This document shows positions 20,441-25,708 of a DNA stretch of 64,000 nucleotides, in pieces; the stretch's first letter is position 1; every line of letters starts with the position of its first letter. The DNA lies in assembly GCF_016101585.1 (NCBI RefSeq), contig NZ_JACFQG010000001.1, positions 372,001 through 436,000 on the forward strand. The letters run 5' to 3'. The DNA comes from Bifidobacterium polysaccharolyticum. GTDB lineage: Bacteria > Actinomycetota > Actinomycetes > Actinomycetales > Bifidobacteriaceae. Below the pieces are notes generated by a model. The model was not told the origin of the DNA. It made no database searches and worked only from the letters and a program-made list of their open reading frames with translations. Position numbers and translations under genes: made by a program.

Positions 20441-20825
20441 CAGATAGAATCCCGAGGTCACCTCGGGATTCTTTTTTATATCCAATGCCCTTGCATATGC
20501 TGGAGCCTGGACCAAGACAGCACTGCCAAACTCCAGTACGGCGTAGACGGACGATCCCGTTCAATGGCCGTCTGCACTATATAGAACACACATCTCGATA
20601 TCTCGATCAAGTCTTTAACCCCAGATTGCCTGCAATGTTTTTATCTCCCACTCCACTGGGTGGAGCTCGTTCAGTTCCCCATTCTTCCGTGCGAATCTTG
20701 CCTGCTGCATCCGTCGTACTGACAATCTTCCAGGGGCCTTACAATGATTCTGATTAAAAATGTCGCAGTCTATCTGCAGACAGATTAATAGGCTCATCGC
20801 AGCGACTCCGGAGGCTTGTACAACA
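20441..20825. other. Intergenic region between tRNA-Ala and the glycohydrolase operon
   Basis: About 385 bases. It starts with the tRNA terminator and ends with the leader of the ADP-ribosylglycohydrolase gene. The remainder is somewhat AT-richer than its surroundings and holds no convincing gene. An alternating TCTCGATATCTCGAT stretch near 20593-20607 is the only striking motif; it could be part of an operator. Confidence 0.4.
20449..20477 (+). terminator. Rho-independent terminator of tRNA-Ala
   Basis: AATCCCGAGG and CCTCGGGATT form a perfect 10-base stem around a TCA loop, followed by CTTTTTT. Confidence 0.9.
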
Positions 20826-21821
20826 ATGACCAGAACTGAAAAGGGCGCACTGGGCGCGCTTACTGGGTTGTCCTTAGGGGACGCGTTGGGCATGCCCACG
20901 CAGAGCATGAGTCCTGCAGCAATACATGAGGCCTACGGCAGGATCCACACCCTTTGCGATGCCATTCCGGATCAGCCCATAGCTCCCGGTATGCCTGCAG
21001 GGTCTGTAACCGATGATACCGAGCAGGCGTTGATCGTGGCGGAACTGACTATCGAGGGTAAGGGACACATCGATCCGAAAGAGTTTGCCAAGCGTCTTCT
21101 GGCCTGGGAGGATGACATGAAGTCGCGTGGATCGCTCGATTTGCTCGGACCATCCACCAAGCTGGCCCTGGAACAGGTTCGCCAGGGCGCGGACATCATG
21201 ACCACAGGAAGGACCGGCACCACCAACGGAGCCGCCATGCGAGTCACTCCGGTAGGCATAGCCAACAGGCCCGAGGACACCAGACGACTGGCCAATCGCA
21301 TCTACGAGTCCTGCCAGGTCACCCACGACACGGTCGCAGGCTTCCAAAGTGCTGCGCTGATCGCTACGACAGTCAGCCTGGGGCTTGAGGGGATGACCGT
21401 TCGCCAGGCACTGAACGAGTCCTTGCGTATGGTGCCCGCCATGGAAACGTCCGGGGCCTGGACTCCGAAGGCATCGGTCCCCGCACGCGCTCGCCAGGCA
21501 ATACGACTATCTGAGGAATTCAGCGATGAGGACGATTTCGAATGTCACCTCATTGAAGACTGCGGGACCTCGGTCGAGGCCAATGAGTCTGTGGCAGCCG
21601 CCTTTTCCCTGGCTTGGAGATTCGCCGACAATCCTCAATCGGCTCTGTTCGCCGCAGTCAACCTTGGTGGCGATACGGACACCATCGCCGCAATGACCGG
21701 CGCAATGACCGGCGCGTGCACAGGTCCCGAGGTCTTCGACCCTGCACTCTGCTCCCATGTAGCTTCGGTATCCCACCTCGACCTGCAGAAAACTGCCCGT
21801 GGCCTGATTGCCCTAAGGTAG
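20826..21821 (+). CDS. ADP-ribosylglycohydrolase-family protein
   Basis: 331-residue member of the ARH/DraG fold family, enzymes that hydrolyse N- or O-glycosidic ribosyl bonds with two magnesium ions. Metal-binding motifs are intact: GDALGMPTQ (Asp19), SVTDDTEQA (residues 61-67) and GGDTDTIAAMTGA (Asp283, Asp285); TGTTNGAAMRVTPVG lies between. The ATG at 20826 has GGAGG 11 bases upstream, while the upstream ATG at 20760 has no site. It is the first gene of an operon with an NCS1 permease and a PfkB kinase. That context, like E. coli yegTUV, argues for a small ribosylated substrate (a nucleoside-type compound) rather than ADP-ribosylated protein; this is inference. Confidence 0.85.
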   Translation: MTRTEKGALGALTGLSLGDALGMPTQSMSPAAIHEAYGRIHTLCDAIPDQPIAPGMPAGSVTDDTEQALIVAELTIEGKGHIDPKEFAKRLLAWEDDMKSRGSLDLLGPSTKLALEQVRQGADIMTTGRTGTTNGAAMRVTPVGIANRPEDTRRLANRIYESCQVTHDTVAGFQSAALIATTVSLGLEGMTVRQALNESLRMVPAMETSGAWTPKASVPARARQAIRLSEEFSDEDDFECHLIEDCGTSVEANESVAAAFSLAWRFADNPQSALFAAVNLGGDTDTIAAMTGAMTGACTGPEVFDPALCSHVASVSHLDLQKTARGLIALR

Positions 21822-21977
21822 CAAAGCGCAAAACGAATACCGTCGAATCCTTCAGGAACACAACAATGTAAAATCCACTCAACCCCAAGACCATGGGGTC
21901 CACCCAGACCACACCACAGGACTGAACAGACAAGTCATCACTACATCCAGTACATCTTGAGTCGAAGGAGACAATCC

Positions 21978-23444
21978 ATGTCAACTGCACCAAAGGAGGG
22001 CACCATCCTCTCCAGAGTCGAGCAAAGGGGCATCGAACCTGTGCCCGAGGACCAGAGGAACGGATCGCCCGGACAACTCTTCTGGGTCTGGTTCGCCGCC
22101 AATATCTCAATTCTGGGAATCCCTCTGGGAGCTACCCTGATTGCCCAGGGTCTCAACCTCTGGCAGGCCGTGCTCGCCACGATCATCGGAGCCTTCGGAT
22201 CCTTCGCCCTCGTCGGCATCATCTCCATAGCCGGCAGAAGAGGCGGCGCGCCCACGCTGACCCTGTCCCGGGCCATTTTCGGCGTCAGAGGCAATGCAGG
22301 CCCCACGCTGGTGGCCCTGCTGTCCAGACTGGGCTGGGAGACGGTGAACACGATGACCGGCGCTTTTGCGCTGCTCTCCCTGATCGCCATCATCTTCGGA
22401 ACCTCAGCCGATGCCAAGCGCTCCCCCCTCCTGACCTTCGTCTGCATTGCCGTCTTCGTGGCCTTGACCGTGGTGGTCTCAGCCGCCGGTCACGCCTTCA
22501 TTCTCACCGTGCAGAAGTGGGCCACCTGGATATTCGGCGCCCTTACACTCCTAGTGGCCATCTATCTGGCCACGACCGTCGACTGGTCCTCCTTCCTCGG
22601 CAATGCCCCCGGCTCAGCCAGTGCTTTCTTGATTGGCGTCGGCACCATAGCTGCGGGGACGGGCATCGGCTGGGTCAACTCCGGTGCAGACATGGCCCGT
22701 TACCAGAAGACCTCGGTAAAATCAGGCCCTCTGATCCTGACCGCGGCGGCAGGCGCCGGAATCCCCCTGGTCGTGGTCATCGGCCTGGGATCGGTCCTGA
22801 CAGCAGGCAACTCCACCATTGCCTCCGCCGCCGATCCTGTCGCCGCGGTTCGAAGCGCTCTGCCTGCATGGGTTTCAATCCCCTATCTGATTGCCGCATT
22901 TGCAGGCCTGCTTATGTCAAACAACCTTTCCGTATATTCGGCCGGCCTGACCACCATCACCCTGGGCATCAGAATCCCCCGCGTCTATGCGGTCGTGGTC
23001 GATGTGGTGGTGACCACCTGCGGAGCCTTGTACTTTACCTTGGGTTCCGACGGATTCTACGGCCCCTTCGTCACCTTCATCTCCCTGCTGGCAGTGCCAC
23101 TGAGCACCTGGGCAGGCATCTTCCTGTCAGATATGATCTTCCGCAAGCGTTACGATTCGGACGGCCTGCTGAATCTTCAAGCAGATTCCCCATACTGGTA
23201 TTGGCACGGAGTCAACCTCCCAGCCATCATCAGCTGGCTGGTGGGGATAGTCGTCGGCTTTCTGTTTGTGACGGCCCAGGTCTCCAAGAACGAAGTCTGG
23301 TTCTCAGGACCGCTGTCCGGCAGCTTCCTGGGCAGGAACGGCCTAGCATGGCTCGTATCCCTCCTCCTGGGAGGAATCCTCTACGCCATTTTGCACCTCC
23401 TCTCCAAGGATTCCGTGGCGGTGGGGAGCAGGAGCCATGACTGA
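21978..23444 (+). CDS. NCS1-family nucleobase/nucleoside-type permease
   Basis: 488-residue membrane protein with about 12 hydrophobic helices, of the NCS1 (cytosine/purine/allantoin/uridine cation symporter) family. Typical segments are RNGSPGQLFWVWFAANISILGIPLG near the N-terminus, RAIFGVRGN, and IGVGTIAAGTGIGWVNSGADMARY in the middle. The ATG at 21978 follows GAAGGAG at 8 bases. It lies 156 bases downstream of the glycohydrolase gene and its stop overlaps the kinase start by 8 bases. Probably imports the compound that the flanking glycohydrolase and kinase process. Substrate unknown. Confidence 0.87.
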   Translation: MSTAPKEGTILSRVEQRGIEPVPEDQRNGSPGQLFWVWFAANISILGIPLGATLIAQGLNLWQAVLATIIGAFGSFALVGIISIAGRRGGAPTLTLSRAIFGVRGNAGPTLVALLSRLGWETVNTMTGAFALLSLIAIIFGTSADAKRSPLLTFVCIAVFVALTVVVSAAGHAFILTVQKWATWIFGALTLLVAIYLATTVDWSSFLGNAPGSASAFLIGVGTIAAGTGIGWVNSGADMARYQKTSVKSGPLILTAAAGAGIPLVVVIGLGSVLTAGNSTIASAADPVAAVRSALPAWVSIPYLIAAFAGLLMSNNLSVYSAGLTTITLGIRIPRVYAVVVDVVVTTCGALYFTLGSDGFYGPFVTFISLLAVPLSTWAGIFLSDMIFRKRYDSDGLLNLQADSPYWYWHGVNLPAIISWLVGIVVGFLFVTAQVSKNEVWFSGPLSGSFLGRNGLAWLVSLLLGGILYAILHLLSKDSVAVGSRSHD

Positions 23445-24405
23445 ACCCAGCATCCTCCATCTGGGTCAGGTGGTGGTTGACCTTAGCATGGACATCGACC
23501 ACCTCCCGGAGCGTGGAGGGGACATTTTCGCCAGACGAAGTGCCATAAAGGTTGGCGGCGGATACAACGTGATTCGCGCAGCCAGGCAGATGGGAGCGCC
23601 CATAGCCTACATGGGAGCGATTGGCACAGGTCCGATGGCGGACATGGTCCGTGTGGCCCTTGCCGCCCTTCAAGTTCCCGCCCAAGGGCCTGTTCTGGAA
23701 GACTGCGATACCGGATACTCGGTAGCCATGATCGAACCCTCCGGCGAACGCACCTTTGTTTCAGCAAGGGGCGCAGAGACCCGCGTACCAGAGGGCACCT
23801 ACGAAAGCATGAATCTGGTTCCTGGCGATGTCATCTATCTGAGCGGATATTCCTTCTGTCACAAGGACAATACCCGAAGCCTGGTCGGTTTTGCTGAGAA
23901 ACACCAGGACGAGGGATTTCCTGTACTCTTCGATGTGGGACCCATGGTGGCCGATATTGAGCTGGATGTGCTTGATGCGGTCAACGGACTGCATCCGATC
24001 TGGTCGCTGAATGAACGCGAGGGACCAATCCTGGCGGAACGTGTGGGATGCCAACTCGAAACTGGCGACGTAACCGAGTTGGAATCCCTCTGCCGCTCGC
24101 TTTCGCTAAGACTGGACAGTCCGGTGGTTCTTAGGGCCGGCGCTCGCGGTGCCTGGTACTGCCAGCCCAAGAATGCGATGCAAATCAAGTACATTCCCAC
24201 CCCACAGGTTCGTACCATAGACACCAACGGTGCCGGCGATGCCCATTCGGGCGTTCTTTGCGCCGGCATATTCCAAGGCCTGCCCATCGAGGAGTCACTG
24301 ATATTGGCAAACTGTGCAGGAGCGCTTTCCACTACTCAGCCCGGTCCAGCCACATGCCCAGATGAGGAAGCCATACGAAAGGCCGCCAGCTCGCTTCAAG
24401 GGTGA
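23437..24405 (+). CDS. PfkB-family sugar/nucleoside kinase
   Basis: 322-residue ribokinase-like kinase. The N-terminal substrate motif VGGGYNVIRAARQMGA (residues 39-54) and the C-terminal PfkB signature DTNGAGDAHSG (262-272, catalytic Asp268) are intact. A TGYSVAMIEPSGERTF lid strand is typical of the family. The gene overlaps the permease stop by 8 bases, with GGGGAG about 8 bases before the ATG, so it is translationally coupled. Within the operon it could phosphorylate ribose or another sugar released by the glycohydrolase, or the imported nucleoside itself. Confidence 0.87.
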   Translation: MTEPSILHLGQVVVDLSMDIDHLPERGGDIFARRSAIKVGGGYNVIRAARQMGAPIAYMGAIGTGPMADMVRVALAALQVPAQGPVLEDCDTGYSVAMIEPSGERTFVSARGAETRVPEGTYESMNLVPGDVIYLSGYSFCHKDNTRSLVGFAEKHQDEGFPVLFDVGPMVADIELDVLDAVNGLHPIWSLNEREGPILAERVGCQLETGDVTELESLCRSLSLRLDSPVVLRAGARGAWYCQPKNAMQIKYIPTPQVRTIDTNGAGDAHSGVLCAGIFQGLPIEESLILANCAGALSTTQPGPATCPDEEAIRKAASSLQG

Positions 24406-24422: not shown

Positions 24423-24464
24423 AAAATAAAAGCGACCGCCGACTCCATGCCGACGGTCGCTTGG
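24423..24464. terminator. Terminator between the kinase and glycerol dehydrogenase genes
   Basis: AAGCGACCG (24430-24438) and CGGTCGCTT (24454-24462) form a stem between two convergent genes. The T-rich side (TTTTATTTTT on the minus strand) suits the dehydrogenase; the hairpin may also stop the plus-strand operon. Confidence 0.7.
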
Positions 24465-24494: not shown

Positions 24495-25580
24495 TCAGAG
24501 TTGCTTGCCCAGCTGATCGGCTGCGCGCAGGGCGTGAGCCACATCGGTGGGAGTCACCCCGAAGGGCATGTTGCCCATGGTCTCGTCGGGACCGCAGGCA
24601 TGCTCGCCGACCTTGAGCAGATCCTCCTCGCTGGCCTGGCCGATGCCGATCTGCTCCAGGGAGGTGGGCAGACCCACGCTGCGGAAGAAGTCATAGACCC
24701 CGCGGGTCTCCTCCAGAGGCCGATCCTCAAGGACCAACTGGGCCAGGGTGCCGAAGGCCACCTTTTCGCCGTGCAGCATGGAGTGGGTGCCCTCCAGGGC
24801 GGTCATCCCGTCATGAATGGCGTGGGCTGCAGCCAGGCCAGAGCTCTCGAAGCCCAGACCGCTCAGCAGCGTATTGGCCTCGATGATCTTCTCCAGCGCA
24901 GCTGTGCGCACACCGGCCTTGGCAGCGGCCACGGCCTTGACCCCATCTTCCAGCAGGGTATCGCGGCAGAGACGGGCCAAGGCAAAGGCGGCCATGGTGG
25001 CGTGGCCTCCGGTCATGGTCACGGCGTTCGACTGCACGCAGGCGGCGGCCTCGTAGTAAGTAGCGAAGGCATCGCCCAGCCCTGATACCAGGAAGCGCAC
25101 CGGAGCCTTGGCGATGACGTCGGTATCCATCAGGACCACGTTGGGGTTGGCAGGCAGGGGCAGATAACGGTCAAAGACACCCTCAGGCGTATAGAGCACG
25201 GACAGCCTTGAGCAAGGCGCATCCGAGGAGGCTGCCGTGGGCACAATCATGACCGGCAGATGGGCGAAGTGAGCCACAGCCTTGGCGGTATCCAAGGTCT
25301 TGCCGCCGCCGATGCCGATCACCGCGTCACTGCCGCCCAAATGGGCACGATGACGGTCGATCTCCTCCATGGAGCACTCGCCGCCGAATTTCATCAGTTC
25401 GTAGGGGATCCCATCGTGCTCAAAGGAGGCGACAATGTCGTCGTGGTAGAGCCCGTCGATGACCGGATCGACGATCAGATGGGCGCCCTTGGTGCCCAGA
25501 GCCGCATATTCTCCGGCCAGCTTTCCCATGGCGCCCTCCTGCTGAACATAGGAGCCTGGAGAGCACAGAACCTTGCGCAT
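24495..25580 (-). CDS. gldA: Glycerol dehydrogenase-type iron/zinc alcohol dehydrogenase
   Basis: 361-residue NAD-dependent polyol dehydrogenase of the GldA branch. NAD-binding motifs are GIGGGKTLDTAKA (about residue 90) and PTAASSDAPCS. The metal ligands are Asp in SGLGDAFATYYEA and His residues in AAHAIHDG and THSMLHGEKVAFG. It would interconvert glycerol and dihydroxyacetone, or a similar polyol, for redox balance. The ATG at 25580 follows GAAAGG at 7 bases. A 128-base upstream region separates it from the next minus-strand gene. Confidence 0.9.
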   Translation of the reverse strand: MRKVLCSPGSYVQQEGAMGKLAGEYAALGTKGAHLIVDPVIDGLYHDDIVASFEHDGIPYELMKFGGECSMEEIDRHRAHLGGSDAVIGIGGGKTLDTAKAVAHFAHLPVMIVPTAASSDAPCSRLSVLYTPEGVFDRYLPLPANPNVVLMDTDVIAKAPVRFLVSGLGDAFATYYEAAACVQSNAVTMTGGHATMAAFALARLCRDTLLEDGVKAVAAAKAGVRTAALEKIIEANTLLSGLGFESSGLAAAHAIHDGMTALEGTHSMLHGEKVAFGTLAQLVLEDRPLEETRGVYDFFRSVGLPTSLEQIGIGQASEEDLLKVGEHACGPDETMGNMPFGVTPTDVAHALRAADQLGKQL

Positions 25581-25708
25581 ATACACACCTTTCTCATTGC
25601 TGATCCCACCTTCAGGACCGGGACCTTCGAGACGGGCCTCTTGGACCGTCCAAAAGTGACCCTAGTCACATTACATGATGGAATGGGTGTGCCGCGCCGG
25701 GTCGTTCG

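Follow-up and report, generated by a model that had tools for sequence, protein, structure and literature searches.

Three adjacent genes, encoding an ADP-ribosylglycohydrolase (ARH)-fold hydrolase, an NCS1-family permease and a PfkB kinase, are proposed here, with moderate confidence, to form a small-molecule salvage operon: a riboside is imported, phosphorylated and, in its phosphorylated form, cleaved by the ARH protein. They lie in a 64,000-nucleotide stretch of Bifidobacterium polysaccharolyticum contig NZ_JACFQG010000001.1 (positions 372,001 to 436,000; the whole stretch is termed the window). The host, whose genome is 2.23 Mb, is a bee-gut Bifidobacterium of the asteroides group, the nearest named relatives in the ARH search being B. 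asteroides and its kin.

The compound imported by the NCS1 permease would be nucleoside-like (an N-riboside or something closely similar), presumably one not handled by the cell's four ordinary nucleoside hydrolases; the kinase, a proposed YegV-like riboside 5'-kinase, would phosphorylate the intact compound, probably on O5'; and the two-metal site of the ARH protein, proposed to be a 5'-phospho-riboside hydrolase of a kinase-paired (YegU-like) subfamily, would split that phosphorylated compound hydrolytically at its glycosidic bond. This would yield the base or amine in free form and, for entry into central metabolism, a sugar phosphate, which in the case of ribose would be ribose-5-phosphate. 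What the sequences show directly is gene content, linkage, joint loss, fusion, a subfamily signature and the exchange of kinase for a phosphotransferase system; co-transcription, a single substrate for all three proteins, the order of the enzymes and ribose as the sugar are what we infer.

The three genes are inherited as a set

Among 27 congeners, 16 have orthologues of the full trio and 10 lack all three; in the remaining one (G011; G and L numbers are our handles for genomes and loci) the set has decayed, ARH and PfkB both being broken and NCS1 gone. Two species (G014 and G015) carry divergent copies in the order ARH-PfkB-NCS1, with the set retained. Beyond the genus, the 80 closest ARH matches from the genome collection all have a PfkB gene on the same strand within 3 kb, and most have an NCS1 gene as well. 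The trio is also found in Pseudomonas and the Burkholderiales, as GntR-ARH-NCS1-PfkB in Paraburkholderia, and in the order seen here on a Lactiplantibacillus plasmid and in Plesiomonas; staphylococcal cassette chromosome (SCC) elements carry ARH, permease and ribokinase genes of the same families in the same order (PMC3637587, PMC3321955, PMC3900703). The co-occurrence in other genomes for which the original prediction called is thus found, directly in Actinomycetota and Pseudomonadota, and in Firmicutes through plasmid loci and the published SCC maps.

In three Actinomycetaceae (Actinomyces and Schaalia) ARH and PfkB are fused into one protein of 727-757 amino acids (L049:6881-9064, L052:6872-9145 and L068:6878-9082), as judged by the presence of both Pfam domains in one open reading frame (ORF) for L049 and L068 and by the ORF together with NCBIfam matches for L052. 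On a Pseudomonas silvicola plasmid the ARH C-terminus runs into the PfkB N-terminus (L171:4887-6341), in what is probably a broken copy. Comparison with B. asteroides gives dN/dS values of about 0.05-0.11 across the three genes, which are therefore under purifying selection. Judged from these sequence comparisons, ARH, NCS1 and PfkB are a functional unit.

The hydrolase belongs to a kinase-paired branch of the ARH fold

In a profile search the ARH protein scores 212 bits against PF03747 (cut-off 26.2), and its AlphaFold model, at a pLDDT of 95.7, is a confident ARH fold, with MJ1187, DraG and ARH3 as best fold matches. As had been predicted, the metal motifs GDALGMP, TDDT and GGDTDT are intact, as is the catalytic Asp of the kinase (GAGD), and all are conserved among relatives, including metal-site residues D19, T62-D63-D64, D283, D285 and T286.

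The subfamily was defined by a profile built from kinase-linked ARHs, against which all loci were scored, with members taken at 250 bits or more (n=106). In 106/106 a Thr precedes the NG of the NGxxM loop (TNGxxM), whereas the other motif-bearing ARHs have Gly or Ala at this position, never Thr. A same-strand PfkB gene lies within 3 kb of 103 members, against 0 of 58 other Actinomycetota ARHs (Fisher p ~3e-41, computed on sequences that are not independent). The window protein, with a loop that reads TNGAAM and a PfkB gene so placed, is of this YegU-like type. Known ARH structures have this loop at the ADP-ribose site, so the Thr may alter the shape of the phosphate pocket. An Asp aligned with D97 of DraG is found in the close clade and not throughout the subfamily; a reading of the ADP-ribose pocket built on it was dropped, and no catalytic claim is drawn from it.

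Phosphorylation is proposed to precede cleavage

The kinase scores 110 bits against PF00294, far above the cut-off, and its AlphaFold model has a pLDDT of 93.0. Its catalytic Asp and N264 are invariant among relatives, the equivalents of ribokinase Asp16, Asn46 and Asp255 are retained, and both the GG..N and GAGD motifs of PfkB proteins are present. At the positions of N14, K43 and E143 (E. coli numbering), which we take to be ribose contacts of ribokinase, it has V, a gap and K, and relatives do not conserve these positions either; the riboside kinases PsuK and aminoimidazole riboside (AIRs) kinase are likewise without K43 and E143. Against the ribokinase family TIGR02152 it reaches 78.8 bits, short of the cut-off of 299.65. 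Two further PfkB proteins of the same genome (L112 and L113) keep all six ribose contacts, and since these two true ribokinases are accompanied by four IU-nucleoside hydrolases, ordinary nucleoside and ribose salvage is evidently covered elsewhere. One nucleoside hydrolase and a true ribokinase stand within about 5 kb of each other (G000:C7:472122-478391), likely the ordinary nucleoside salvage locus of the genome.

The three subfamily ARHs without PfkB, all from plasmid records, lie beside phosphotransferase system (PTS) genes, of the bgl type in Enterococcus and Listeria and of the man type in Klebsiella. They occupy two places in the ARH tree, each beside kinase-paired ARHs: the Klebsiella protein (L127) groups with that of Salmonella (L168), the other two (L124 and L126) beside the Bifidobacterium paralogues. 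With the Salmonella ARH encoded next to AIRs kinase, L127 shares 56% identity. A PTS phosphorylates its substrate while importing it, so it could take the place of a separate kinase only if that kinase acts on the intact compound; the same transport logic is seen in fructoselysine operons, which use a kinase, and glucoselysine operons, which use a PTS. The AIRs kinase of the Salmonella operon is reported to phosphorylate an intact riboside (PMC3161100). On the Klebsiella plasmid the man-type PTS by the ARH gene has an Amidohydro_2 protein on either side (L127:909-5879), possibly for an extra step on the aglycone; a DNA search of E. coli genomes did not find the PTS-linked Klebsiella ARH.

The missing ribose contacts, the two true ribokinases, the PTS swap in two lineages and the Salmonella riboside kinase together suggest that the kinase acts first and that its phosphorylated product is then hydrolysed. 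Of the two orders entertained by the original prediction, this corresponds to its second, a kinase acting on the intact nucleoside, which fits better. Its first, in which ARH cuts the free imported riboside and PfkB phosphorylates the released ribose, draws on the ribokinases that top both the PfkB profile and fold searches and on the common layout of a nucleoside hydrolase beside a ribokinase; but the kinase has lost N14, K43 and E143 in a genome with two ribokinases that bear them, a PTS in place of the kinase is sensible only if the imported compound becomes phosphorylated, and the Salmonella kinase works on intact riboside (PMC3161100). We consider this order unlikely. In its simple form, as a nucleoside hydrolase plus ribokinase, it was rejected, because the kinase is without the ribose contacts and both activities are already encoded elsewhere in the genome.

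Observations that weigh against riboside salvage, and other readings

Several observations count against the kinase-first scheme for ribosides. The PfkB profiles on which the window kinase scores highest are those of ribokinases. Identity to the window proteins is no more than 22-25% for AIRs kinase and its ARH partner, and that kinase belongs to a different PfkB branch. The exchange of kinase for PTS was seen in two lineages, and the PTS concerned may take different substrates. When Actinomycetota were sampled by ARH alone, the subfamily (n=18) had PfkB adjacent in 11 cases, 3.4 kb away in 2 and none in 4, with 1 at a contig end; of the four without PfkB, one adjoins a nucleoside ABC importer, two adjoin adenosine deaminase and the last is decayed. 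Bifidobacterium paralogues of the ARH-kinase pair adjoin GH32 and sugar ABC genes, so the wider ARH branch may handle several glycosides; and since some kin pair with these or with polyamine-type ABC importers, the substrate need not be a nucleoside.

Some of these neighbourhoods are of interest in themselves. In L246 (5929-8016) and L247 a subfamily ARH gene directly adjoins adenosine deaminase, with no PfkB. The second PfkB-ARH pair of bifidobacteria (L128-L133, in G005, G008, G016, G017, G023 and G024) lies near LacI-like regulators and GH32, sugar ABC, MFS or amino-acid permease genes, and its PfkB is from another branch of that family. A Yersinia frederiksenii plasmid (L167:5207-11783) has in a row genes for GntR, ARH, a SIS-domain protein, PfkB, a phytase-like protein and UshA, suggestive of an extended pathway.

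The same scheme of transport, kinase and hydrolase might operate on a non-nucleoside glycoside: a furanoside, a glycosylamine or a ribosylated guanidine such as ribosyl-arginine or creatine riboside. It would suit the GH32 and sugar ABC genes beside the paralogue pairs, the extra SIS-domain gene of Yersinia and the spermidine/putrescine-type ABC importers of alphaproteobacteria and Halomonadaceae. We count in its favour that ribosyl-guanidine bonds are cleaved by DraG and ARH1, which belong to the ARH family. So too we count the existence of free guanidino-ribosides, creatine riboside among them (PMC9282934). However, the importer in the window is of the NCS1 family, and partners of nucleoside type are found among kin: the NHS permease YegT, a Bmp/PnrA nucleoside ABC importer and adenosine deaminase. 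A non-nucleoside substrate appears to us quite improbable.

Very much less probable is that the ARH protein removes ADP-ribose from protein or nucleic acid, or serves in immunity, and merely lies beside a transporter and a kinase. It shares fold and metal site with DraG, ARH3 and Tri1, but its scores fall far under the cut-offs of the DraG (TIGR02662, 74.8 against 337) and Tri1 (NF041672, 67.1 against 490) families; the genes are lost together and are reordered with the set intact, and ARH is in some species fused to a small-molecule kinase; the TNG loop never occurs in the other ARHs sampled; and no ADP-ribosyltransferase is found among the annotated neighbours in the window. With family cut-offs missed and the wrong partners, protein de-ADP-ribosylation was rejected. 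The role of this ARH is most likely in small-molecule metabolism, a role distinct from protein de-ADP-ribosylation as had been foreseen, and the genes form a real conserved unit. Regulation of the glycogen or ADP-glucose pool, a role suggested for the GgaR/YegW-controlled yegTUV genes of E. coli, where ADP-glucose was tested as GgaR effector and a glycogen phenotype seen (PMC10819704), can be set aside as barely credible: that paper itself calls the functions of yegT, yegU and yegV unknown, the window cluster has neither GntR regulator nor glycogen gene, and the exchange of importers is left unexplained.

The permease and the variety of importers

The permease scores 214.8 bits against PF02133 (cut-off 23.5), and 112.9 against TIGR00800, the core NCS1 subfamily, which requires 353.1; it is thus placed in an outlying NCS1 branch, and its name gives no substrate. 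Among solved structures, the hydantoin permease Mhp1 is closest to it, and its gene is the sole NCS1 gene in the genome. We propose that it imports the riboside. With ARH and kinase, NCS1 importers are found in Bifidobacterium, Pseudomonas, Burkholderiales and firmicutes, Pot-type (spermidine/putrescine-type) ABC importers in Rhizobium, Mesorhizobium, Paracoccus and Halomonadaceae, NHS permeases in E. coli (YegT) and Pantoea, MFS_2 in Salmonella and Bmp/PnrA in one actinobacterium. Deducing the substrate from the type of importer fails, at least six types occurring (NCS1, NHS, MFS_2, Pot-type ABC, Bmp ABC and PTS).

In three congeners a divergent second NCS1 gene (35-37%) stands beside a stop-containing PfkB remnant (G003:C3:60413-62377, G008:C4:244253-246228 and G010:C1:112174-114143), a decayed cluster of similar kind, and a frameshift divides the cluster's own NCS1 gene at G008:C1:914869-916321.

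Organisation of the locus

ORFs and Pfam matches agree with the original prediction of three plus-strand genes, the last two overlapping by 8 nt (23437-23444). Its account of the flanks was right as to a tRNA-Ala gene upstream and a minus-strand gene downstream; the "housekeeping block" was loosely put, the neighbour being a GldA-type dehydrogenase. Upstream, tRNA-Ala(GGC) ends at 20441. It adjoins the cluster in some relatives only and is distant or absent in others, and is not supported as an integration site. An alternative ARH start, ATG at 20760, would add an N-terminal extension that homologues do not have. A short inverted repeat (ACCCC..GGGGT), possibly with a regulatory role, lies in the 156-nt gap between ARH and NCS1 (21822-21977); this gap notwithstanding, the three genes are likely to be on a single transcript. 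The hairpin downstream of the kinase is likely a terminator shared with gldA. A GntR-UTRA regulator, commonly adjoining kin clusters, is not present in the window, nor are glycogen genes found in the cluster.

Features of the ARH-NCS1-PfkB locus (positions in the window)
Feature	Position	Strand	Remarks
Strong terminator-like hairpin closing the tRNA-Ala unit (upstream boundary)	20446-20472	+	12-pair stem, 7 G-C pairs, T-run
Candidate weak sigma-70-like promoter upstream of ARH	20719-20748	+	CTGACA-18-AATGAT, 9/12 match; by consensus match alone
ARH-fold hydrolase gene	20826-21821	+	ATG start; PF03747
NCS1-family permease gene	21978-23444	+	PF02133
PfkB kinase gene	23437-24405	+	PF00294; D[TS]NGAGDxH (YegV-like) type
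Hairpin between convergent kinase and gldA genes	24430-24462	-	14-pair stem, 9 G-C pairs, flanking A/T runs
Glycerol dehydrogenase (GldA-type) gene	24495-25586	-	faces the operon across the 24430-24462 hairpin

Implications and comparison with known systems

More tentatively, a separate branch of the ARH fold could consist of 5'-phospho-riboside hydrolases that follow a kinase or PTS in the pathway. Unrelated to PsuG and PpnN, they would be a third solution to the step that those enzymes catalyse, and would open to catabolism ribosides of a class (alpha-anomers or ribosylated guanidines, perhaps) without known pathway. The module spans Actinomycetota, Pseudomonadota and Firmicutes, includes E. 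coli yegTUV and Salmonella STM4067, and rides SCC and other mobile elements; loss of STM4067 lowers gut persistence of Salmonella in pigs (PMC3161100). If the proposal is right, a family usually annotated by protein de-ADP-ribosylation would gain a small-molecule function and many genome annotations would be corrected, while from the kinase/PTS exchange comes a specific order of reactions that can be put to the test, with the candidate ARH substrates narrowed to phosphorylated ribosides. The kind of cluster is already known (yegTUV, STM4065-67); the proposed ARH reaction is new as far as the literature was searched, and the searches found no assigned function for YegU, YegV or STM4067.

The comparison with E. 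coli yegTUV made by the original prediction is borne out. There, as in the window, genes for an importer, a YegU-like ARH and a YegV-like kinase are adjacent, and YegU and YegV are homologues of the window ARH and kinase at about 29-30% identity, with the same TNG loop and GAGDxH kinase motif; the E. coli operon differs in its NHS/MFS importer in place of NCS1 and in its adjacent GntR regulator (yegW/ggaR). Salmonella STM4065-4068 (MFS, AIRs kinase, ARH, GntR) likewise combines an importer and a PfkB protein, here a crystallised riboside kinase (PDB 1tyy; PMC3161100), with an ARH of the TNG subfamily; it differs in PfkB branch (22% identity), in the ARH (25% identical), in gene order and in importer. 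The SCC J3 genes of staphylococci (SERP2216-2218) comprise, by published maps, the same three families in the same order (PMC3637587, PMC3321955, PMC3900703), carried in this case on SCC elements.

Among more distant systems, DraG, ARH1, ARH3 and Tri1 have the fold and two-metal site of the window ARH but act on ADP-ribosylated proteins and have a GNG loop where it has TNG, and it misses the DraG and Tri1 family cut-offs. MJ1187 (PDB 1t5j) is the closest solved structure (26% identity, TM-score 0.81/0.89), but is without the TNG loop and has no known function. The proposed scheme resembles in its logic the pseudouridine operon psuTGK, in which the riboside is imported and phosphorylated by a PfkB enzyme, and its 5'-phosphate is then split hydrolytically into ribose-5-phosphate and base (PMC12322656, for the glycosidase reaction), although PsuG is an unrelated C-glycosidase and PsuK merely a superfamily relative.

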